Below are positions 11,622 to 37,206 of a stretch of DNA of 64,000 nt, piece after piece. Numbering within the stretch: position 1 is the first letter of the stretch; each line of letters begins with the position of its first letter. Below the pieces are notes generated by a model that had not been told where the DNA came from, made no database searches, and was given only the letters and a program-made list of their open reading frames with translations. Made by a program: the position numbers and the translations under genes. This DNA is from Liquorilactobacillus mali (lineage in GTDB: Bacteria > Bacillota > Bacilli > Lactobacillales > Lactobacillaceae): NCBI RefSeq assembly GCF_001437155.1, contig NZ_JQAR01000010.1:1-64000 (forward strand), in the 5' to 3' direction.

Positions 11622-12056
11622 TTAATGCTTTACAGTAATTCTAAAGTATGTTCTAGCGGCCAATTCTGAGACGAAAAATCCCATAGCAATTGCTCCAGCA
11701 ATCATCGCAACTTGTACCAAATTACTAATTGCCGCCAAGTCATTCCCAACGGCAAAATTGCGCACAGCCTTGTATGCCTGCCCACCAGGAACCAGTGGAA
11801 CAAGGCTTGGAATATTGAACAAAATCATTGGCATTTTTAACCTACGAGCCATAAAGATTGAACTAAGCCCTATCGCTAAAGCAGCCACCGCATTAGCCAG
11901 CATTGTCCCCCCATTGGCCATCTTAATCACCAGATAGGTCACCCAGCCTAAGACCCCTACCCAACCGCAAGAATTAAGTGCTCTATGTGGAATATTAACA
12001 ATAATGCCAAAACCAATTGTTGCTAAATAACTACAAATTATCTGTATTATCATCAT
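11622..12056 (-). CDS. Threonine/serine exporter family protein, small subunit
   Basis: Small membrane protein of about 144 residues with four to five hydrophobic segments and the motif PSLVPLVPGGQAY, which is characteristic of the DUF3815 (ThrE C-terminal) half of the threonine/serine exporter. In actinobacteria the two halves are fused in ThrE. Here they are separate genes 12 bases apart, the usual Firmicutes arrangement. The pair probably exports threonine, serine or related amino acids or acids. Actual substrate is not shown. Confidence 0.85.
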   Translation of the reverse strand: MMIIQIICSYLATIGFGIIVNIPHRALNSCGWVGVLGWVTYLVIKMANGGTMLANAVAALAIGLSSIFMARRLKMPMILFNIPSLVPLVPGGQAYKAVRNFAVGNDLAAISNLVQVAMIAGAIAMGFFVSELAARTYFRITVKH

Positions 12057-12068
12057 ATTGCACTCTCC

Positions 12069-12821
12069 TCATAAGAAACGGAAAACAAAAGCAATTCCCA
12101 TGCCTATTGCGCAAGCACTTAGAAGTGCCTCCATCGCACGGGCCATTCCACTAAGAAAATGCCCAGCAAATACATCCCGAACCGCGTTGGTGATTGGTAC
12201 TCCAGGTACCAGCGGCATTACACCACCAATAGTAATCATCCCAATCCGTGACCCTAATTGCAGCCGAACAAATAAAACAGCTATAACTCCTATAAGAAAA
12301 GACGCCAAAAATTCACTAACAAACCTGATTTTAAGTCGGTTATTAATTAGATAATAACAGCTGTATCCAAGCCCCCCTGCAAAAGCTGTCGCAATTATAT
12401 CACGCCAAGATCCGCCATACATTATCATCAGAGTTACACTCACAATCACGGCGGCTATCAGTTGTAACCAAAAAGAAAAAAACGGTGTTGAAATATTTAG
12501 TTTTACCAAGTTGTTGCGGAATTCGTTCAACGAGATTTGTCCGTCCTGAAAAGCTCTCGAATTCTGATTAACTAAAGAAACCTTCTCTAGATCAATCGTC
12601 CTCTTTTGAATAGGTTCGACCTGCGCAGCTGCTTGCTTTGGAATTGACATTAAAATTCCTGTAGTTGTTTCAAAAATCTTTGGATTATCAATTCCTGCAT
12701 TACGTGCAATTCGTGTTAGCGTATCATCGACCCTAGCCATATCTGCACCATTTTCAATCATGATCTTTCCTGCCATTAAAATTGTTTCAATAATAAGATC
12801 GTTTTTAGTCACAAACTTCAC
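12069..12821 (-). CDS. Threonine/serine exporter family protein, large subunit
   Basis: Membrane protein of 250 residues corresponding to the DUF1212 half of ThrE. The N-terminal soluble part (about residues 1-110) has the family motif IENGADMARVDDTL. The C-terminal half has about five hydrophobic segments and the LVPGVPITNAVRD motif. It is followed by the small subunit and a terminator, so the operon is just these two genes. Together they should form one secondary exporter for hydrophilic amino acids. Confidence 0.87.
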   Translation of the reverse strand: MKFVTKNDLIIETILMAGKIMIENGADMARVDDTLTRIARNAGIDNPKIFETTTGILMSIPKQAAAQVEPIQKRTIDLEKVSLVNQNSRAFQDGQISLNEFRNNLVKLNISTPFFSFWLQLIAAVIVSVTLMIMYGGSWRDIIATAFAGGLGYSCYYLINNRLKIRFVSEFLASFLIGVIAVLFVRLQLGSRIGMITIGGVMPLVPGVPITNAVRDVFAGHFLSGMARAMEALLSACAIGMGIAFVFRFL

Positions 12822-27398: not shown

Positions 27399-29018
27399 AT
27401 GGGAATGAATATTTTAAATGATCCGTTCAAAAACAAAGGTACAGCTTTTACATTAGAAGAACGTAAAGAACTCGGCTTAGAAGGTCTCTTGCCTCCATAT
27501 GTTCAGACACTTGACCAACAAGTTGCTCAAACATATGCACAATTCCAAACAAAACCAACTGATCTTGAAAAGCGCATGTTTTTAATGGAAATTTTCAATG
27601 AAAATCATGTACTCTTCTACAAACTTTTTAGTGAACATGTAGTTGAATTCATGCCAATTGTCTACGATCCAACGATTGCAGATACCATTGAAAACTACAG
27701 TGAATTATACGTACAGTCTCAAAATGCTACTTTCTTATCCATCGATAATCTCGATGCTATTGAAAACTCACTTAAAAATGCCGCTAATGGCCGCAACATT
27801 AGATTGATTGTTGTGACTGATGCCGAAGGAATACTTGGTATTGGCGATTGGGGAACAAATGGCGTTGATATTGCCGTTGGTAAGTTGATGGTCTACACCG
27901 CAGCTGCCGGAATTGATCCTAGTCAAGTATTACCTGTTGTTTTAGATGCTGGTACAAACAATGACAAGCTTTTAAATGATCCACTTTATCTCGGTAATCA
28001 TCATAGCCGTATCACCGGTGACAAGTATTACGAATTTGTTGATAAGTTTGTTGAATCTGCTGAACGCTTATTCCCAAATCTGTATCTTCACTTTGAAGAT
28101 TTTGGTCGTGATAACGCTGCTAACTTGCTTAATAAATATAAAGACAAAATTACAACGTTCAATGATGATATTCAAGGTACAGGGATTATTACTCTTGCTG
28201 GAATTCTTGGTGCATTGAACATCTCCAAACAAAAAATGACTGATCAAATTTATCTTTGCTTTGGTGCTGGTACTGCAGGAGCTGGAATTACAAAACGAAT
28301 TTATGATGAGTTTATTCAAGAAGGTCTAAGCGAGGAAGAAGCTCGTAAACATTTCTATATGGTCGACAAGCAAGGCCTGTTGTTCGATGATGATACAACT
28401 TTGACACCAGAACAAAAACCTTTTGCTCGTTCAAGGAGTGAATTTGATAATGCTGATGAATTAACAAACCTTTTGGCAGTCGTAAAAGCAGTTCATCCAA
28501 CGATTCTTGTTGGTACATCTACACAGCCAGGTGCATTCACAGAAGATGTCGTTCGCGAAATGGCTGCTCACACTGAGAGACCTGTTATCTTCCCACTTTC
28601 TAACCCAACCAAACTAGCAGAAGCTAAGGCTCATGATTTGATTGAATGGACTGAAGGACGTGCACTTGTCGCTACTGGTATTCCAGCTCCTGATGTTGAA
28701 TTCAATGGTGTATCATATCATATCGGTCAGGCAAATAATGCTCTCGTATATCCTGGGCTTGGACTAGGTGTGATTGCTTCAACTGCAACAGTATTGAATG
28801 ACGAAATGATTTCAGCTGCTGCTCATTCACTAGGTGGTATCGTTGACCCTGAAGAGGCTGGAGCTGCTGTTTTACCTCCTGTTTCAAAACTTGATCGTTT
28901 TTCAACCACAGTTGCTCTCGCAGTTGCTGAGAGTGCCAAGATTCAAGGATTAACAAGAGAAAAAATAGATGATGTTGCTACTGCCATAAATGATGCCAAA
29001 TGGGCACCTGAATACTAA
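27399..29018 (+). CDS. mleA: Malolactic enzyme
   Basis: NAD-dependent enzyme that converts L-malate to L-lactate and carbon dioxide, deacidifying the medium and generating proton motive force together with a malate transporter. The 539-residue length is right for malolactic enzymes. Landmarks are [22 protein letters not shown], the catalytic-lysine region, [11 protein letters not shown], then FNDDIQGTG, the nucleotide loop GAGTAGAGI and SNPT. True malic enzymes look very similar. The match to malolactic enzymes is supported by the LysR partner and the transporter gene immediately downstream. SD AAGGAAGG is present upstream. Confidence 0.93.
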
Positions 29019-29034
29019 GGAGGACTTAGGTATC

Positions 29035-30450
29035 TTGGCTACAAAAATAAATTATAAGAAGTTTATTATTCCCATCGTTGTAGCACTAGTTATTTGGTTA
29101 GCAACTCCTTTCCGTCCTGAGAGCGTCTCGATTGCCGCGTGGCATATGCTGGCAATATTTGTTGCTACCATCATTGGCTGTATCACACAACCACTACCAA
29201 TTGGTGCAGTTGCAATTTTGGGATTTACTACAACCGTTATTACACATGAAGTTCCTATTGATACTGCAGTTGCAGGATTCGGTAATAACAGTATCTGGTT
29301 AATTGCAATGGCATTCTTCATTTCAAGAGGGTTCATCAAAACCGGATTAGGACGCAGAATTGCTCTCGGATTTGTAAGAATTTTTGGTAAAAAAACGCTT
29401 GGACTTGCATACTCATTAATTGGTGTTGATTTGATTCTTGCACCTGCTACACCAAGTAACACCGCCCGTGCAGGTGGCATCATGTACCCAATTATCAATT
29501 CTTTGTCTAGGTCCTTTGGTTCTGCTCCTGAGGATAATACTCAACGTAAAGTTGGATCATTTTTGACCTTTGCTGAATTTCACGGAAATATGATTACCGC
29601 CGCAATGTTCTTAACTGCAATGGCAGGCAATCCGTTAGCACAGTCTCTAGCAAAAAGTGCGCATATCAATATTTCCTGGATGGGATAGTTTATCGCTGCA
29701 CTTGTTCCTGGAGTAATAAGCTTAATCCTTGTTCCGTTTATTATATACAAGCTTTATCCACCTGAAATAAAAGAGACTCCTAACGCTAAAAACTGGGCTG
29801 ATGAACAGCTTGCAGAAATGGGTAAGATGTCCTTACCTGAAAAGTTTATGGCTGGAATATTCGTTATTGCCCTGATTCTTTGGGTTTTAGGCGACACATT
29901 AAATGTAGATGCGACTTTGACTGCATTTATTGCTCTTTCTCTTCTATTATTAACTGGTGTACTTAGCTGGAGTGATATCTTACAAGAAAAAGGTGCATGG
30001 AACACATTAACGTGGTTTTCTATACTGGTAATGATGGCTAATGAACTGAATGTACTTGGTTTTATTCCATGGCTAAGTAAGACTATTGCAAGTTGTGTAC
30101 ATGGCTTGTCATGGCCTCTTGTCTTGATTGTTCTAATCTTGTTCTATTTCTACTCACATTACCTCTTTGCAAGTGCAACAGCACATGTTAGTGCAATGTA
30201 TTCTGCTTTGTTAGGTGTAGCTGTCGCTTCTGGTGTTCCACCCTTGTTGGCGGCACTATTCCTTGGTTTCTTTGGTAATCTATTTGCATCCACTACTCAT
30301 TACAGTAATGGTCCAGCACCTATTCTTTTCTCAGCAGGATATGTTTCACAGAAAGATTGGTGGCGTCTGAATGCAATATTAGGTATCGTCTATCTGGTTG
30401 TTTGGCTCGGACTAGGCAGCTTATGGATGAAAATTTGTGGAATTTATTAG
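29035..30450 (+). pseudogene. DASS-family anion (malate/citrate-type) transporter, interrupted by TAG
   Basis: The frame encodes about 471 residues of a divalent anion:sodium symporter-like protein with about 11 membrane segments. Landmarks are AFFISRGFIKTGLGRRIA, the APATPSNTARAGG motif and, in the second half, ATAHVSAMYSALLGVA. The reading frame is identical before and after a single TAG at 29686-29688 (context SWMG-stop-FIAALVPG). The start is TTG at 29035 behind AAGGAGG. Related carriers commonly have tryptophan at this position, so a TGG to TAG change is likely. If not suppressed, malate uptake through this protein is lost. It follows mleA by 16 bases, which suggests malate as substrate. 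Confidence 0.82.
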
Positions 30451-30528: not shown

Positions 30529-30784
30529 TTATTACCTAAAATATCTCAAATAATTTCTTCTTGCAAACTTATTATAAATAATATTTAATAAATAAATATT
30601 CACTTTATTTTTCAAAGAAAACTGCTACATACAGCTAATTAAATAATTAAAAACCCCGGTTTCTATAATTTAAATGAGGTTTTAGTTAAATTCTATTTAA
30701 AAAGTTCTCAATAACCGTTACTTTATTAAATATGAAGTTTATAAAAATTCGAAATTTATTTCAGCATAATTAGAGGTGTTAAAG
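30529..30784 (+). other. Intergenic region upstream of the 5-oxoproline operon
   Basis: About 250 very AT-rich bases hold the promoter region of the seven-gene operon. A short imperfect repeat AAATTCGAAATTT near 30746-30758 and a weak CCCCGG-centred repeat near 30653-30660 were noted. No convincing -35/-10 pair, riboswitch or RNA gene was recognised. SD AGAGG (30772-30776) precedes the GTG start. Confidence 0.35.
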
Positions 30785-31513
30785 GTGATAGCTTACAAAT
30801 ATGATTTTGTACCTGCGGGTGAACAGGCTCTCCATATTGCTTTCCCTGAACAGATTGACGTTTCAGAAAACCAATTGATCCAAGAGTTAGCTCAACAACT
30901 GCAGTCTCGCTTTATTTATGAAATCACAGATATTGTTCCTGCATATAGGACGTTAACCATCAGTTTTGACATCAGAAAAACAACTTATTACGAATTCAGC
31001 TCCAAGTTAAAGGTTTTTTTGACCCATTATGTTCCAGATACAAAAAATGATCACGGTCGTATATTTGAAGTTCCTGTTTGTTATGACCCCGAGTTTGGGA
31101 TAGATCTCGAAGATGTTGCTGCTTTTGGGAATATAAGCGTCGAAGAATTAATCAAACTTCATTCGGCTAATAATTATTTTATTTATATGATGGGATTCCT
31201 GCCAGGATTTGCCTTTATGGGAAATGTTCCAGATCGAATTGCAATGCCTAGGCTTTCTGCTCCACGAGCTTCAATTGCTCCTGGAAGCGTAGCAATTGCA
31301 GGAAAGCAGGCCGGAATGTATCCTGTCGATTCACCAGGCGGTTGGCGAATTCTTGGTAGGACTCCAATTACACTTTATACTCCAAATAATCCACTGCCAC
31401 CATTCCAAGCAGGGGATTGGATCAAGTTTTCTCAAATTGACCGAACTGATTATTCAGCGATAAAAGAACTTGATGCTCATGGTGAATATCAGCTTAAAAT
31501 AATTTCAGAATGA
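30785..31513 (+). CDS. pxpB: 5-oxoprolinase subunit B / AHS1-domain protein (KipI family)
   Basis: Cytoplasmic protein of 242 residues. In known systems PxpB acts with PxpA and PxpC to hydrolyse 5-oxo-L-proline (pyroglutamate) to glutamate with ATP. The fold also forms one half of the carboxyltransferase part of urea carboxylase. Family motifs are GFLPGFAFMG, APRASIAPGSVAIAGKQ and YPVDSPGGWRILGRTP, all in the C-terminal half. The GTG at 30785 has AGAGG eight bases upstream. It is the first gene of the operon and is followed by pxpC after 12 bases. Confidence 0.92.
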   Translation: MIAYKYDFVPAGEQALHIAFPEQIDVSENQLIQELAQQLQSRFIYEITDIVPAYRTLTISFDIRKTTYYEFSSKLKVFLTHYVPDTKNDHGRIFEVPVCYDPEFGIDLEDVAAFGNISVEELIKLHSANNYFIYMMGFLPGFAFMGNVPDRIAMPRLSAPRASIAPGSVAIAGKQAGMYPVDSPGGWRILGRTPITLYTPNNPLPPFQAGDWIKFSQIDRTDYSAIKELDAHGEYQLKIISE

Positions 31514-31525
31514 AAGGAGAAAATT

Positions 31526-32536
31526 ATGCCACATATTGAGATTATTAATTCAGGCTTGGCCGCAACTATCCAAGACCTTGGGCGTACCGGTCACCAAGCA
31601 AAAGGCATCCCTGTTTCAGGTGCTATTGATCAATATTCACATCGGTTAGCTAACATTCTGGTAAATAATTCTGAAAAATCCGCAACCTTAGAATTTAGTA
31701 TTCTTGGACCTACCATAGAGTTCAATGTTGAAACATTCATTGCAATTACCGGTGGCGATTCTGCTCCTATACTCAATGATTCAAATATCAGCTTAAATAC
31801 TACATATCCAGTAAAAAAAGGTGATATCTTAGCATTTCATCCCATGAAGAGCGGCCGTTTTGGCTATATTGCTTTTGCTGGTAATGGGCTTCAAGTTGAA
31901 CCTATTCTTGGAAGCCGTTCTACTAATACAAGACTTAATCTCGGTGGATATCATGGACGAGCACTTGCAAAAGGAGATTGTTTAACCATCGACAACTGCT
32001 ATCAAATGCCAAGTCTAGCAAACCGTAGCCTGCCTTGGAGCAAACCGACTGGAAATTCGATTCGTTTTATCAAGGGACCACAATGGAACCTATTTTCCGA
32101 AAGTGCAAAACAAGTGTTTAAAGATGGACCATTTACCATTTCAACACAAGCCGATCGCATGGGATTCAGATTAGATGGACCGACTCTTGAGATACCACAA
32201 AAAAACATGCTGTCTGAAGGTGCTGTTCTAGGAAATATCCAAATAACTAGGGCCGGTCAACCAATTGTTTTGTTAGCGGATCGCCAAACTGCAGGCGGTT
32301 ATCCAGTAATTGCAACAATAATTGGTGCCGATCTTGGTAAATTTGTTCAATTTGCTTCAAACAGCCCACTTCTTTTTGAAGAAGTTTCACTCAAGAAAGC
32401 CACTGCCGCCCTTCGCAGCCAGTACCGTTTCTTGGGTGAACTGGCAGATTCCATTTATCAAAAAAGGTATCAATATCCTATTGGCCCTATTAGAAAAACA
32501 AGTAAAAAGATTGAAGAAATGATTTTCAATAGTTAA
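31526..32536 (+). CDS. pxpC: 5-oxoprolinase subunit C / AHS2-domain protein (KipA family)
   Basis: Protein of 336 residues annotated in databases as biotin-dependent carboxyltransferase-like. Landmarks are ATIQDLGRTGHQAKG near the start, FIAITGGDSAP, RFGYIAFAGNG, and the C-terminal EGAVLGNIQITRAGQPIVLLAD. With PxpB it forms the heteromer that resembles the carboxyltransferase domain of urea carboxylase. Ribosome site AAAGGAG lies before ATG 31526. The biotin carrier gene follows after 14 bases. Confidence 0.92.
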   Translation: MPHIEIINSGLAATIQDLGRTGHQAKGIPVSGAIDQYSHRLANILVNNSEKSATLEFSILGPTIEFNVETFIAITGGDSAPILNDSNISLNTTYPVKKGDILAFHPMKSGRFGYIAFAGNGLQVEPILGSRSTNTRLNLGGYHGRALAKGDCLTIDNCYQMPSLANRSLPWSKPTGNSIRFIKGPQWNLFSESAKQVFKDGPFTISTQADRMGFRLDGPTLEIPQKNMLSEGAVLGNIQITRAGQPIVLLADRQTAGGYPVIATIIGADLGKFVQFASNSPLLFEEVSLKKATAALRSQYRFLGELADSIYQKRYQYPIGPIRKTSKKIEEMIFNS

Positions 32537-32550
32537 AGGAGACTTCTGTT

Positions 32551-32970
32551 ATGGAAATACCAAGTTTGGATGAACTGATTAACAAATTTCAAGAGGCAGG
32601 TCTTACACATCTTGAGATTAAAAATGGCGAAGATAAAATTGTTTTGAAAAAGGAAATAACAGCCTCCTCTCCTATTAATTCAGTTGCAAGCGAACAAAAA
32701 CCTGCAGTTAATGTAAAGCCTGCAGAAAGTAAGAAACTCACAATAAATGCTCCATTCGTTGGAACCTTCTACACATCACCAAGTCCACAAGAAGATTCCT
32801 TCGTCAAGGTTGGAGACAAAATTCAAAAGGGACAAGTCGTTGGCATCATAGAAGCTATGAAGATGATGACTGAAGTTAAGTCTGAGGTTGCTGGTACTAT
32901 TACAGACATTCTAGTTGCTAATGAGAGTACCGTTGAATACAATACGCCCCTCATTGCACTTAAGAATTGA
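32551..32970 (+). CDS. Biotin carboxyl carrier protein
   Basis: Carrier of 139 residues. An N-terminal helix is joined by a Lys-, Ala- and Pro-rich linker to a biotinyl domain from about residue 65. The biotin attachment motif EAMKMM is present near residue 105, and the surrounding FVGTFYTSPSP and KVGDKIQKGQVVGIIEAM are typical of AccB-type carriers. It carries carboxy-biotin between the carboxylase downstream and a carboxyltransferase. Its position beside pxpB and pxpC, not beside accD and accA, argues that it serves this operon and not fatty acid synthesis. The SD AAAGGAG is well placed. Confidence 0.92.
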   Translation: MEIPSLDELINKFQEAGLTHLEIKNGEDKIVLKKEITASSPINSVASEQKPAVNVKPAESKKLTINAPFVGTFYTSPSPQEDSFVKVGDKIQKGQVVGIIEAMKMMTEVKSEVAGTITDILVANESTVEYNTPLIALKN

Positions 32971-32980
32971 GGTGTTGGTT

Positions 32981-34300
32981 TTGAAAAAAGTTCTTGTTGC
33001 TAATCGTGGAGAGATTGCTGTTCGAATCATCCGCGCCTGTCATAATCTTGGTTTAAAGGCAGTAGCCGTATACTCCACTGCTGATAAAAATAGTTTACAT
33101 GTTCAATTAGCGGATGAGGCTATCTGTATTGGACCAGCTGAACCAAATAAAAGTTATTTAAACATTCACGAAATAATCGCGGCTGCAGAGATCACCCAAT
33201 CGGACGCTATTCATCCAGGATATGGTTTCTTATCCGAAAATGAAGAATTTGCTAAAAAATGCGAAGATGAAAAAATCACTTTTATTGGTCCTCAGTCACA
33301 TGTGATTGCACTAATGGGTGAGAAATCTCGTGCACGTGAAACGATGTTGGCGGCGGATGTTCCTGTCGTTCCAGGAGGAGATACCGAATTTACTGACGTA
33401 ATCAGTGGTTTAGCATATGCTAAAAAGATTGGCTTTCCAGTTATGCTAAAGGCAAGTGCCGGTGGTGGCGGTAAGGGAATGCGCGTGATTAAAAGTGCTG
33501 ATCTCTTCGCCAAAGAATTTGGTTTGGCCCAAAGTGAGGCCCAACACGCCTTTAATGATAATCATATGTATCTTGAAAAATATCTCCCTCATCCACGTCA
33601 TATTGAAGTTCAAATCATTGCTGATCAACAAGGCAATGTAACAGCAGTTGGTGAACGGGACTGCACCATCCAACAGCATCACCAAAAAGTAATTGAAGAA
33701 GCCCCTGCAATCGCATTGCCAGAAGAAACTCGGCAAAAAATGTTTGCTGTTTCTGTGAAGGCTGCAAAAAAAATTGGTTATATTGGTGCAGGAACGATGG
33801 AATTCTTATTAGATGACCCAGAACATTTTTATTTTATGGAGATGAACACTCGCATACAGGTTGAGCATCCCGTCAGTGAATTAACAAGTGGACTTGATCT
33901 TGTTGAATTGCAGTTGCTCGTTGCTCAGGGCAAATCTCTCCCTTTTAAGCAGGAACGTATCTCAGCAAATGGGTTTGCATTGGAATGTCGTATAAATGCT
34001 TTAACTGCAGGTAAAATATCGGGCTTACATCTTCCAGCTGGATATGGGATCCGTGTAGACACAGGTCTCTATCAGGGATATGTTGTTCCTCCTAACTATG
34101 ACTCAATGATTGCTAAAATCATTACTTTTGCCCCCTCAAGGCAAAAGGCGATTACTTTAATGAAAAATGCACTTGATGAAACAGTCATCTCAGGTGTGAA
34201 TACAAACCTTGATTTTCTAATGCAGTTATTAAATGAATCTGATTATGTTGGAAATAAGACCGATATTAATTGGTTGGATAAATTAACTACCACAATCTAA
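32981..34300 (+). CDS. Biotin carboxylase
   Basis: ATP-grasp enzyme of 439 residues that carboxylates biotin on its carrier with bicarbonate. The N-terminal Rossmann part begins KKVLVANRGEIAVRIIRA. The ATP-grasp glycine loop is KASAGGGGKGMRVI. Further landmarks are HPRHIEVQI, ERDCTIQQHHQKVIEEAPA and MEMNTRIQVEHPVSEL. The start is TTG at 32981 with GAGGTG six bases upstream and overlapping the end of the carrier gene. The longer frame begins inside the carrier gene and is not used. Gene context suggests a special-purpose carboxylase, see the operon finding. Confidence 0.93.
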   Translation: MKKVLVANRGEIAVRIIRACHNLGLKAVAVYSTADKNSLHVQLADEAICIGPAEPNKSYLNIHEIIAAAEITQSDAIHPGYGFLSENEEFAKKCEDEKITFIGPQSHVIALMGEKSRARETMLAADVPVVPGGDTEFTDVISGLAYAKKIGFPVMLKASAGGGGKGMRVIKSADLFAKEFGLAQSEAQHAFNDNHMYLEKYLPHPRHIEVQIIADQQGNVTAVGERDCTIQQHHQKVIEEAPAIALPEETRQKMFAVSVKAAKKIGYIGAGTMEFLLDDPEHFYFMEMNTRIQVEHPVSELTSGLDLVELQLLVAQGKSLPFKQERISANGFALECRINALTAGKISGLHLPAGYGIRVDTGLYQGYVVPPNYDSMIAKIITFAPSRQKAITLMKNALDETVISGVNTNLDFLMQLLNESDYVGNKTDINWLDKLTTTI

Positions 34301-34315
34301 TTTGGAGGTGTTCTC

Positions 34316-35116
34316 ATGGATATACTAAAAGATATAGCATCATTATCACCAGTTGAAGTCCGTCATCTGATTCGCGCTGGAAAATTTACTAAACCCACTA
34401 GTGGATTAGCTTCAGGATATACCCAAGCAAATTTAGTAATCTTACCAAAGGTCTTGGCATATGACTTTCTATTGTTTGCTCAAAGGAATCCTCGTCCTTG
34501 TCCTATCTTGGAAGTTAGTGATGTAGGAAGCCGCGAGTTACATAAATTCGCCCAAGATATTGATCTAGCAAACGACTTTCCTCGTTACCGTATCTACCGA
34601 AACGGTATCTTTACCGATGAAGTCACCAGTGTTGCAGATTATTGGCAAGATGATCTAGTAAGTTTCTTAATTGGTTGCAGTTTTTCCTTTGAATCAGAGC
34701 TAATCGCCGCTGGAATCGAAATTCGTCATATAACTGAAGGCGTAAATGTTCCAATGTACAATACCTCCATTCCGCTTGAATCTGCAGGTGAATTTCATGG
34801 CAACATGGTTGTCAGTATGCGTCCAATCCCTGAAAACCAGGTAGTGACAGCCGTCAACGTAACTGCTGCCATGCCAAAGGTTCATGGTGCACCAATTCAA
34901 ATTGGTGATCCTGAATCGATAGGTATTACAGATATTTCGAAACCGGATTATGGCGATCCTGTCACAATAAAGCCTGGAGAGATTCCTGTCTTTTGGCCGT
35001 GTGGTGTTACTCCACAGAATGCAATTATGCAGGTAAAACCAGAATTCGTAATTACCCATGCACCTGGTCATATGCTGGTAACAGATATCAAAAATACAGT
35101 ACTAAAATATGAATAG
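34316..35116 (+). CDS. DUF1445 protein (YcsI family, putative hydro-lyase)
   Basis: Protein of 266 residues of the DUF1445 family. Relatives include Bacillus YcsI and the D-glutamate cyclase-like enzymes. Landmarks are HLIRAGKFTKPTSGLASGY, the FLIGCSFSFESEL segment and GEFHGNMVVSMRP, then HGAPIQIGDP and PVFWPCGVTPQNA. Since a D-glutamate cyclase forms 5-oxo-D-proline, a role on cyclic glutamate is plausible. This is inference from family reports and operon context. The ATG at 34316 follows GGAGGTG. It sits between the carboxylase and pxpA, as ycsI sits beside ycsF and kipIA in Bacillus. Confidence 0.85.
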   Translation: MDILKDIASLSPVEVRHLIRAGKFTKPTSGLASGYTQANLVILPKVLAYDFLLFAQRNPRPCPILEVSDVGSRELHKFAQDIDLANDFPRYRIYRNGIFTDEVTSVADYWQDDLVSFLIGCSFSFESELIAAGIEIRHITEGVNVPMYNTSIPLESAGEFHGNMVVSMRPIPENQVVTAVNVTAAMPKVHGAPIQIGDPESIGITDISKPDYGDPVTIKPGEIPVFWPCGVTPQNAIMQVKPEFVITHAPGHMLVTDIKNTVLKYE

Positions 35117-35128
35117 GAGTTGATCTTA

Positions 35129-35878
35129 GTGACAAAAATTGATTTAAACAGTGATTTAGGTGAAAGCTTTGGTCGTTACAGTCTAGGCAAAGACAAAGAA
35201 ATCATTCAACTTGTGACTTCTGTCAATATTGCTTGTGGATTCCATGCTAGTGATCCTGATGTGATGGCTAAGACAGTTGCTCTGGCCGAAGCAGCCGGTG
35301 TCGGTGTCGGTGCCCATCCGGGTTATCCAGATCTGCAAGGCTTTGGCAGACGAAAAATGCAGCTACAGCCCTCAGAGGTTGAACACTTAGTAACCTATCA
35401 GATTGGCGCACTTCAAGCTTTTACATCTTCCAAAAAGCTCCACCATGTTAAACCCCATGGTGCACTCTATAATATGGCAGCTAAGGACTATGAGCTCTCA
35501 TTGGCAATCTGCCGAGCTATTAAGTCGGTTGACCCTGATCTCCCAATCTATGCCCTTGCAGGCAGCAAAACAGTTCAAGCTGCGGAAACAATTGGCATAC
35601 GTTGTGCACAGGAAGTGTTCGGAGATAGAAACTATCTGCCCGATGGCAACCTGGTACCAAGGAGTGAAGCGAATGCCGTAATTACTGATCCAGCAAAAGT
35701 TGCTGATCATGTAATTGAAATGATAAAGAATAAGTCAGTAACTGCTATCGATGGTTCAACGGTTCCATTACAGGCTGATTCTATCTGTGTCCACGGTGAT
35801 AATGCAGCAGCATTGACAATTGTTGCCAGCCTCCGTGAAACACTGCAGAATAATAACATTGCGCTTCAGGCTTTTTAA
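35129..35878 (+). CDS. pxpA: 5-oxoprolinase subunit A (LamB/YcsF family)
   Basis: Cytoplasmic enzyme of about 249 residues and the third subunit of the ATP-dependent 5-oxoprolinase. Landmarks are DLNSDLGESFGRYSLG, VNIACGFHASDPDVM, GVGAHPGYPDLQGFGRR and HVKPHGALYN, with conserved histidines and aspartates that form the likely metal-dependent active site. The GTG at 35129 sits nine bases after AGGAG. The longer TTG start directly abuts that site and was rejected. It lies between the DUF1445 gene and the NRAMP-like transporter. Confidence 0.92.
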   Translation: MTKIDLNSDLGESFGRYSLGKDKEIIQLVTSVNIACGFHASDPDVMAKTVALAEAAGVGVGAHPGYPDLQGFGRRKMQLQPSEVEHLVTYQIGALQAFTSSKKLHHVKPHGALYNMAAKDYELSLAICRAIKSVDPDLPIYALAGSKTVQAAETIGIRCAQEVFGDRNYLPDGNLVPRSEANAVITDPAKVADHVIEMIKNKSVTAIDGSTVPLQADSICVHGDNAAALTIVASLRETLQNNNIALQAF

Positions 35879-35908
35879 AGAAAACATACAGAGAGAAGGA
35901 ATTGTAAT

Positions 35909-37138
35909 ATGATGAATAAATCAAAAGATTCTAACAACATGCCTGATTTAAATGGGCCTAAAGCTTCACCACGCAGTATTGCTATGGGTGCTGCATTCTT
36001 AATGGCCATGGCTGCCGTAGGGCCAGGGTTCTTAACACAAACTGCTACATTTACTGGTCAAATGGGAGCCGATTTTGGTTTTGCAATCCTGATTTGTATT
36101 ATTTTTGATATTATCGTTCAAATGAATGTTTGGCGTATCATTGTCGTCAGTGGTAAAAAAGCACAAGTAATTGCAAATGAAATCTTCCCTGGCCTTGGAT
36201 ATGTACTTTCATTTCTTGTTGCGGTTGGTGGCCTCTTCTTCAATATTGGGAATGTTGGTGGAGCGGGACTTGGCCTCAACGTACTTTTCGGTATTTCACC
36301 CGAAAATGGTGCCGTAATTGCCGGCGCCCTTGCAATTATTATCTTTGTTGTCAAAAATGCTTTGACTGTTATGGATCGTACCGTTCAAGTCCTCGCTGTT
36401 GTTAAAGTTGCAATCCTACTTTACATTATATTCATCATGGCTGTACCTTATCAGTCAGCAGTTCAACATACTTTTATGCCTACAAAAGTTGATTTTTATT
36501 CTATTGTCACAATCGTTGGTGGAACTGTTGGTGGTTATATTTCATTTTCCGGTGGCCATCGCTTAATTGAAGGCGGCATGAAAGGCAAACAAAACATTAA
36601 GTACGTTAATGAAGGTGCCTTGACAGGAATTGGGATTGCCTCTGTTATCCGTGTACTGCTCTTCTTAGCCGGTCTTGCCGTTGTTGTGACAGGTTACAAG
36701 CTTGATCCTACTAATCCGGCAGCTTCAATCTTTAAGTATGCCGCAGGTAACTTTGGATATAAGTTCTTTGGCTTATTGCTCTTCGCAGCTGGAATGACTT
36801 CAATCCTTGGCTCGACATTTACATCAACTTCTTTCTTAGATTTTGCAGTCAAGTCGAAAAACGGGTTACAAAAATCACGTAAAGTACTAATAATCAGTTT
36901 TATTGTAATCTCAACTGTTATCTTTTATGTTGTTGGTAGTCCCGCAAAGGTTCTTGTCTTTGTTGGTGCTGCAAACGGATTTGTGCTTCCAATTGCATTA
37001 GCGATTCTCTTGATTGCAAGTGTCTCCAAAAAAATTGTTGGTGACTACAATCACCCAAAATGGTTAATCATTGCCGGTTGGTTCGTCGTTGCTTTCATGG
37101 CTTTCGCAAGTATCAAGACAGTTATCGGACTATTTTAA
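35909..37138 (+). CDS. NRAMP-family transporter (YcsG-like)
   Basis: Integral membrane protein of 409 residues with about 11 hydrophobic segments and a short polar N-terminus. It starts with MGAAFLMAMAAVGPGFLTQT and contains the FSGGHRLIEGG loop and TSILGSTFTSTSFLD. It belongs to the NRAMP-like group that includes YcsG, which sits beside ycsF in Bacillus. Canonical NRAMP metal-binding residues (DPGN and MPH) are not evident, so it may carry the organic substrate of the operon instead of manganese. It is the last gene, followed by a strong bidirectional terminator. The ATG 35909 follows AAGGA. Confidence 0.83.
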   Translation: MMNKSKDSNNMPDLNGPKASPRSIAMGAAFLMAMAAVGPGFLTQTATFTGQMGADFGFAILICIIFDIIVQMNVWRIIVVSGKKAQVIANEIFPGLGYVLSFLVAVGGLFFNIGNVGGAGLGLNVLFGISPENGAVIAGALAIIIFVVKNALTVMDRTVQVLAVVKVAILLYIIFIMAVPYQSAVQHTFMPTKVDFYSIVTIVGGTVGGYISFSGGHRLIEGGMKGKQNIKYVNEGALTGIGIASVIRVLLFLAGLAVVVTGYKLDPTNPAASIFKYAAGNFGYKFFGLLLFAAGMTSILGSTFTSTSFLDFAVKSKNGLQKSRKVLIISFIVISTVIFYVVGSPAKVLVFVGAANGFVLPIALAILLIASVSKKIVGDYNHPKWLIIAGWFVVAFMAFASIKTVIGLF

Positions 37139-37162: not shown

Positions 37163-37206
37163 AAGGAAGACTGAGTCAAAATTTAACTTTTGATTCAGCC
37201 TTCCTT
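37163..37206 (+). terminator. Bidirectional terminator after the 5-oxoproline operon
   Basis: Arms GGAAGACTGAGTCAAAA and TTTTGATTCAGCCTTCC with an A-run before and T-run after. It lies between convergent units and serves both the plus-strand operon and the peroxidase gene on the minus strand. Member of the dispersed hairpin family. Confidence 0.88.

Follow-up and report, generated by a model that had tools for sequence, protein, structure and literature searches.

A lactobacillus 5-oxoprolinase operon with its own biotin carboxylase and biotin carrier genes, and a possible biotin-dependent route for lactam opening

We analyzed a stretch of 64,000 nucleotides from Liquorilactobacillus mali (contig NZ_JQAR01000010.1, positions 1 to 64,000; the window), part of a genome of 2.44 Mb, and describe an operon in it that combines the 5-oxoprolinase genes pxpA, pxpB and pxpC with genes for a biotin carboxylase (accC) and a biotin carrier (accB). 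Seven plus-strand open reading frames (ORFs) without internal stops occupy 30776-37138 in the order pxpB-pxpC-accB-accC-DUF1445-pxpA-Nramp-like, with gaps of 12, 14, 7, 15, 3 and 30 bases between successive genes, which bears out the tight same-strand packing described in an earlier note made from the sequence of the window. The operon and the hairpin that follows it consist of:

30776-31513, plus strand: pxpB, start GTG 30776 or GTG 30785; carboxyltransferase subdomains C/D (PF02682), over the TIGR00370 PxpB cut-off.
31526-32536, plus strand: pxpC; carboxyltransferase subdomains A/B (PF02626), over the cut-off of TIGR00724 (PxpC domain model).
32551-32970, plus strand: accB, biotin carboxyl carrier protein (BCCP) with EAMKMM; over the TIGR00531 BCCP cut-off, Pfam Biotin_lipoyl.
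32978-34300, plus strand: accC, biotin carboxylase; over the NF006367 AccC subfamily cut-off, with three Pfam biotin-carboxylase domains.
34316-35116, plus strand: DUF1445 / UPF0317 gene, YcsI-like; over the NF003969 hydro-lyase cut-off, Pfam D-Glu_cyclase.
35120-35878, plus strand: pxpA, 5-oxoprolinase subunit A; over the NF003814 PxpA cut-off, Pfam LamB_YcsF.
35909-37138, plus strand: Nramp-like transporter gene, Pfam Nramp; PxpT/YcsG-like by position.
37171-37198, plus strand: terminator-like hairpin 3' of the operon, a consensus match only.

The earlier choice of GTG 30785 as the pxpB start is possible; a second in-frame GTG lies further upstream at 30776 and gives the longer gene listed here. 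The accC ORF has an alternative start at TTG 32915, which would overlap accB. Promoter-like sites are in no excess over chance in the operon region, and the 3' hairpin is weak, as the region holds 10 terminator-like sites against 6.1 +/- 2.3 in shuffles. Three proteins miss stricter models: PxpC scores below the cut-off of NF045499, the NCBI equivalog for PxpC (240.9 vs 500 bits), AccC falls just short of TIGR00514 (625.2 vs 626.5 bits) and the Nramp-like protein reaches the cut-off of neither Nramp model. The closest solved chain to the window PxpC is YbgK (5dud).

PxpA, PxpB and PxpC are thus encoded together, as in a PxpABC 5-oxoprolinase, and the biotin carboxylase, the biotinyl lysine and the carboxyltransferase domains are all intact, as in a biotin-dependent carboxylase. 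Pfam and family searches agree with the earlier note that the biotin carboxylase, carrier and carboxyltransferase modules are all present, as separate genes, alongside PxpA; a Pfam search found no accA or accD within the operon. The note had also called both biotin proteins intact, and indeed AccB has its EAMKMM and AccC keeps all 14 positions that we take to be catalytic in the E. coli enzyme. Thirteen of these positions are invariant across all 58 full-length pxp-linked AccC sequences that we compared, and the MK lysine is found in all 58 AccB of pxp loci.

The same gene order recurs through the genus and beyond, which argues that the operon is not a chance arrangement. PxpC is encoded in 42 of 251 Lactobacillaceae (family f1) genomes, the source genome included. 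The co-occurrence search suggested in the earlier note, counting genes within 7 kb of pxpC, found accC at all 43 loci in this family (40 full length, 3 partial), along with pxpB at 43, pxpA and the Nramp-like gene at 42 each, accB at 38 and DUF1445 at 29; the locus without pxpA (L088) is of a different type. Class-wide, PxpC was found in 219 of 299 genomes. Beyond the Lactobacillaceae we read 84 PxpC rows from loci hand-picked in 35 families, which are not a random sample: 23 have accC (22 full length), two have accB only, 57 have neither and two are fused urea carboxylases, and an accC-linked locus is present in 10 of the 35 families. In family f14, which we guess to be Staphylococcus, these loci read pxpB-pxpC-accB-accC-pxpA-Nramp, with DUF1445 absent from the operon.

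Known PxpABC 5-oxoprolinases (B. subtilis; E. coli pxpBCA; C. glutamicum pxpTABC) share PxpA, PxpB and PxpC with the operon, and often the Nramp-like transporter and the DUF1445 protein. The E. coli K-12 pxp locus, however, is without biotin genes, whereas the lactobacillus operon has accB and accC inside it; in the stretches read, and with tblastn, no accB or accC match appeared at the E. coli K-12 locus, in a Fusobacterium record or at plasmid loci of Pseudomonas, Rhizobium tumorigenes and Methylobacterium. Closer in content are loci with a short carrier, on Rubrobacter, Halostagnicola and Ensifer plasmids and in "double" loci of Bacilli, where pxpA, PxpB/PxpC-like proteins, a Biotin_lipoyl protein and AccC occur together as in the operon, although the carriers are of 77-80 amino acids (plasmids) or ORFs of 87-119 amino acids (Bacilli) and the gene orders are different.

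AccB and AccC subunits are also available from elsewhere in the genome, since a separate fatty-acid accB-accC-accD set exists: on contig C34 an AccC with 51% and an AccB with 42% identity to those of the operon are adjacent, with AccD next to them. Contig C1 holds in addition a frame of 1162 amino acids with a biotin carboxylase domain, the size of a pyruvate carboxylase. In an AccC tree of 90 rows (9 of 99 having been dropped as long-branched or of another type, and partial AccC left out), 48 operon AccC form one clade with support 98/94 (38 from f1, 7 from f14, 2 from f44 and 1 from f3), 20 fatty-acid AccC of f1 and f3 (Lactobacillales; f3 being, we presume, streptococcus-like) form a separate clade with support 99/95, and eight other pxp-linked AccC are placed elsewhere. 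The earlier note was ready to give up its reading if AccB and AccC fell within the acetyl-CoA carboxylase clade and the genome had no other accBC; we found the second set just described, and an AccC outside the fatty-acid clade of its order. Although the source genome itself possesses AccD, operon-bearing genomes of genus g121 have no close AccD (see below). By this comparison the operon AccC belongs to an operon-specific clade and is no stray fatty-acid copy.

Most of the 36 g121 genomes lack an acetyl-CoA carboxylase. We searched them with PxpC, AccC, the biotin ligase BirA and AccD joined in one query, and 11 had PxpC with an operon-type AccC; in all 11, BirA is encoded 1953-2830 bases from accC, and no other AccC, no pyruvate carboxylase and no close AccD was found. 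Two further genomes (G564, G500) have AccC, AccD and BirA without PxpC and one (G568) has a BirA match alone, while the other 22 matched none of the four queries clearly: their hits were weak, to other proteins of ATP-grasp type (E of 1e-12 or above), with an AccD-like hit, also weak, in G368. The association of operon and BirA has a Fisher p of 6e-7, a value that overstates independence as the genomes are related. At locus L063 the ligase has 252 amino acids (11768-12526), is convergent with the Nramp-like gene and ends three bases from it; Pfam shows only the ligase and C-terminal domains, with no DNA-binding domain detected. A biotin ligase is therefore present in every g121 genome where the operon is the only AccC-type system, which supports the use of biotin proposed in the earlier note. 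The comparison indicates that the g121 operon is accompanied by a presumptive AccB-biotinylating enzyme and lies in genomes that offer it no ordinary acetyl-CoA carboxylase to serve.

Of 12 Lactiplantibacillus records counted, two were read. The identical seven genes, in identical order, are carried by the L. plantarum plasmids pLPBLS41_3 and SRCM103357 unnamed2 and by L. brevis pUCCLB556_C. The L. plantarum cassettes are each preceded by an IS256 transposase and followed by a transposase, and downstream of the L. brevis cassette are IS110 and IS6 transposases; the gene set minus DUF1445 is found in an L. fermentum record of 760 kb. Comparison indicates that the seven genes form a conserved unit that also moves on plasmids. 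Given the separate AccC clade, the presence of accC at all 43 Lactobacillaceae pxpC loci, the g121 ligase and the plasmid cassettes, AccB and AccC most likely serve PxpBC, and we consider dedicated use of biotin by this operon very probable.

The earlier note compared the operon with urea carboxylase, and as regards the modules the comparison stands: urea carboxylase (K. lactis 3va7; the fused bacterial L097 and L194) has biotin carboxylase, BCCP and carboxyltransferase domains in common with it. The operon is not, however, a urea carboxylase in pieces, as PxpBC keeps the 5-oxoprolinase core and sits on a separate branch from the single urea carboxylase polypeptide. In the 42 Lactobacillaceae rows, P136, G137, Q171 and G173 of PxpB and S228 of PxpC (alignment positions) are found in all and D208 of PxpC in 39, and all six residues are different in both fused urea carboxylases, beside which no pxpA was found in the fetched stretches. 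In a PxpC tree of 127 rows the 42 Lactobacillaceae PxpC form one group (support 99), whereas the accC-linked double loci group with urea carboxylase (95). The accC label requires 11 changes on this tree, at least 7 of them forced by starred branches; as a quick method was used with long rows, the count means "several times," and gain and loss are indistinguishable. PDB entry 9yx5, which we take to be mycobacterial, lists the chains of AccA3, named as an acyl-CoA carboxylase alpha3 subunit, and of PxpB/PxpC-like proteins. It resembles the operon in that pairing and differs from it in that biotin carboxylase and BCCP are one protein and no PxpA chain was found; we found no paper on it in the open-licence PMC literature. 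Its chain lists suggest that PxpBC-like pairs can assemble with a biotin carboxylase.

Several related genes were seen outside complete operons or in unusual company. Four double loci (L132, L146, L161, L192), whose PxpC group with urea carboxylase, each have two PxpBC pairs with a short carrier, AccC and PxpA, and L132 additionally has a sigma-54 activator and a two-component pair. At L150 and L165 a biotin-carrier ORF of 91 amino acids follows pxpB-pxpC-pxpA, with no accC in the fetched stretch. Families f14 and f44 also have orphan PxpC-like genes with a degraded core motif and no pxpA or pxpB nearby (L103, L105, L115, L118, L119). The source genome has a second, lone pxpB (L011 6696-7421, G000:C10) with no pxpA or pxpC within the fetched 9.9 kb, and it has one PxpC match only. 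Upstream of the operon, at 28990-30450 in the window, a DASS/Na_sulph_symp transporter gene beside a malolactic enzyme gene is broken by one in-frame stop; its counterpart in L047, L048, L049 and L050 is one unbroken ORF of 476-486 amino acids.

The Nramp-like proteins at pxp loci lack the DPGN and MPH motifs that we take to bind metal in Nramp transporters (DPG in 0 of 70, MPH in 0 of 70). Published work describes both that overproduced YcsG raised cell manganese in B. subtilis (PMC10448178) and that PxpT is required for growth of C. glutamicum on 5-oxoproline (PMC13274462). Despite the absent motifs, the Nramp-like gene might encode a metal importer or, like pxpT, a protein needed for growth on 5-oxoproline.

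Ring closure is favored over ring opening (Keq about 0.035; PMC13274462), so ATP-driven activation is needed in any model, and the field assumes that PxpBC acts through phosphorylation of 5-oxoproline (PMC13274462). In the mechanism we propose, AccC would use ATP and bicarbonate to carboxylate the biotin on AccB, and PxpB-PxpC, being carboxyltransferase domains of urea-carboxylase type, would pass the carboxyl group on to 5-oxoproline, with the lactam nitrogen as the simplest acceptor. PxpA would then hydrolyse the activated ring and the N-carboxyglutamate would lose CO2 to give glutamate, so that opening the ring would cost one ATP and the bicarbonate would be recovered. The Nramp-like protein would import 5-oxoproline, and the DUF1445 protein, which is optional, may convert D-glutamate to 5-oxo-D-proline and back. 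We infer the substrate, the carboxylated intermediate, the transporter cargo and the DUF1445 role. We favor, with some reserve, a biotin-dependent 5-oxoprolinase with 5-oxoproline as its substrate and N-carboxylation as its chemistry. That it would represent a 5-oxoprolinase class of its own, with the lactam activated by CO2 carried on biotin instead of by phosphate, PxpBC acting as a true carboxyltransferase, N-carboxy-5-oxoproline as the intermediate and bicarbonate as a recycled cofactor, seems to us an even bet.

Several observations weigh against this proposal. At all three g130 loci (L057, L060, L068) accC directly follows pxpC and no accB was found, as if the carrier came from the fatty-acid set; at both g154 loci accB was likewise not found and accC is short of about 110 residues in its middle, and in L085 the ATP-grasp domain was not found; in g119 (G366) accC is split into three pieces and the Nramp-like gene into two. 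Throughout these six genomes pxpA, pxpB and pxpC are open, and all six keep a fatty-acid AccC and AccD. Either the fatty-acid AccBC substitutes, and such supply in trans is possible, or PxpABC works alone, or the operons are decaying. In g121, a distant AccD-like protein of 555-562 amino acids (AccD profile, E about 1e-16) occurs in G482, G532 and G301; as G301 has it without BirA, which the other two possess, its activity need not depend on biotin. The g121 search was not aimed at biotin decarboxylases and would have missed one that has no biotin carboxylase domain. PxpC residue 261 (alignment position 259, after GGYP) is V, L or M in all 42 Lactobacillaceae rows and K or R in 41 of 49 accC-free rows (eight others, the orphans, L092 and L120, being set aside), several of which are without K/R. 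Across the Lactobacillaceae, urea carboxylase and the double loci it seemed a promising signature of biotin use, but we rejected it as diagnostic: K or R also occupies this position in all 9 f14/f44 rows and in all 5 of the remaining accC-linked rows, and L155, a locus that has no accC and adjoins the Lactobacillaceae clade (support 88), has V. Finally, in the 2017 work of Niehaus, B. subtilis PxpABC is said to have been active on mixing the three recombinant proteins.

A rival explanation is that PxpABC is biotin-free and that AccBC have an unrelated or regulatory job or are relics. The six Lactobacillaceae genomes with lost or broken accB/accC and open pxpABC, and the 57 of 84 hand-picked rows without accBC, agree with that explanation, which we nevertheless hold to be improbable, because the conserved catalytic residues and biotin lysine are unexpected of relics and a biotin ligase lies beside the operon; we rejected relics for most loci, with genuine decay in a few genomes. 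No more probable, in our estimation, is that PxpABC is biotin-free and AccBC are extra acetyl-CoA carboxylase subunits that boost fatty-acid synthesis with AccAD, linked to the pxp genes for co-regulation only. AccB and AccC do score as acetyl-CoA carboxylase subunits, and published assignments run the same way. A six-gene S. aureus operon that, like the window, has pxpB, pxpC, pxpA, accB and accC together is a CcpE target with accBC listed under fatty-acid synthesis, and the excerpts of that paper contain no enzyme role for the biotin genes (PMC11315280). An additional BCCP/biotin carboxylase pair in the Lp. pentosus genome is called an extra acetyl-CoA carboxylase copy and is given as a feature separate from pxpB/pxpC (PMC12427679); we infer that the two form one operon. 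The pairing of pxp and acc genes in one operon is already in print, and thus is not unique to the window. Against extra fatty-acid subunits stand the lack of accA and accD in the operon, the separate AccC clade, the repeated change of the accC label with pxpC and the 11 g121 genomes with an adjoining ligase and neither a close AccD nor another AccC.

Somewhat less remote, although still unlikely, is that carboxylation by a biotin-dependent PxpBC is real and its substrate is another cyclic amide or a urea-like compound, with PxpA as the ring opener. Urea carboxylase is among the PxpBC homologs and has the double loci on its branch, PxpC scores below the strict model, and the DUF1445 and Nramp-like partners leave the substrate unfixed; on the other hand, the core of the window PxpB and PxpC is of the 5-oxoprolinase type, not the urea-carboxylase type, and C. 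glutamicum, to grow on 5-oxoproline, needs an operon in which the partners are likewise PxpA and a related transporter (PMC13274462).

A 2011 survey left undecided whether the carboxyltransferase of urea carboxylase has, in its widespread split homologs, proteins that cooperate with biotin carboxylases or that do something else (PMC3199775). The operons described here suggest that the answer is "with biotin" in lactobacilli, and probably in staphylococci. For B. subtilis and E. coli, the 2017 5-oxoprolinase work reportedly pointed to "something else." Searches of the open-licence PMC literature, as far as excerpts of it reveal, brought up no experiment on biotin in a PxpBC system. In its boldest form, our proposal would have other PxpBC enzymes borrow the fatty-acid AccBC too. 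Biotin-dependent lactam opening may be widespread and unrecognized, because pxp genes are also paired with a biotin carrier and AccC on plasmids from an actinomycete, an alphaproteobacterium and a haloarchaeon. Both the plasmid cassettes and the g121 genomes offer small, self-contained test systems. If the proposal is true, genes annotated as a second acetyl-CoA carboxylase are misnamed, and the supply of biotin would set a limit on how much 5-oxoproline these bacteria recycle.

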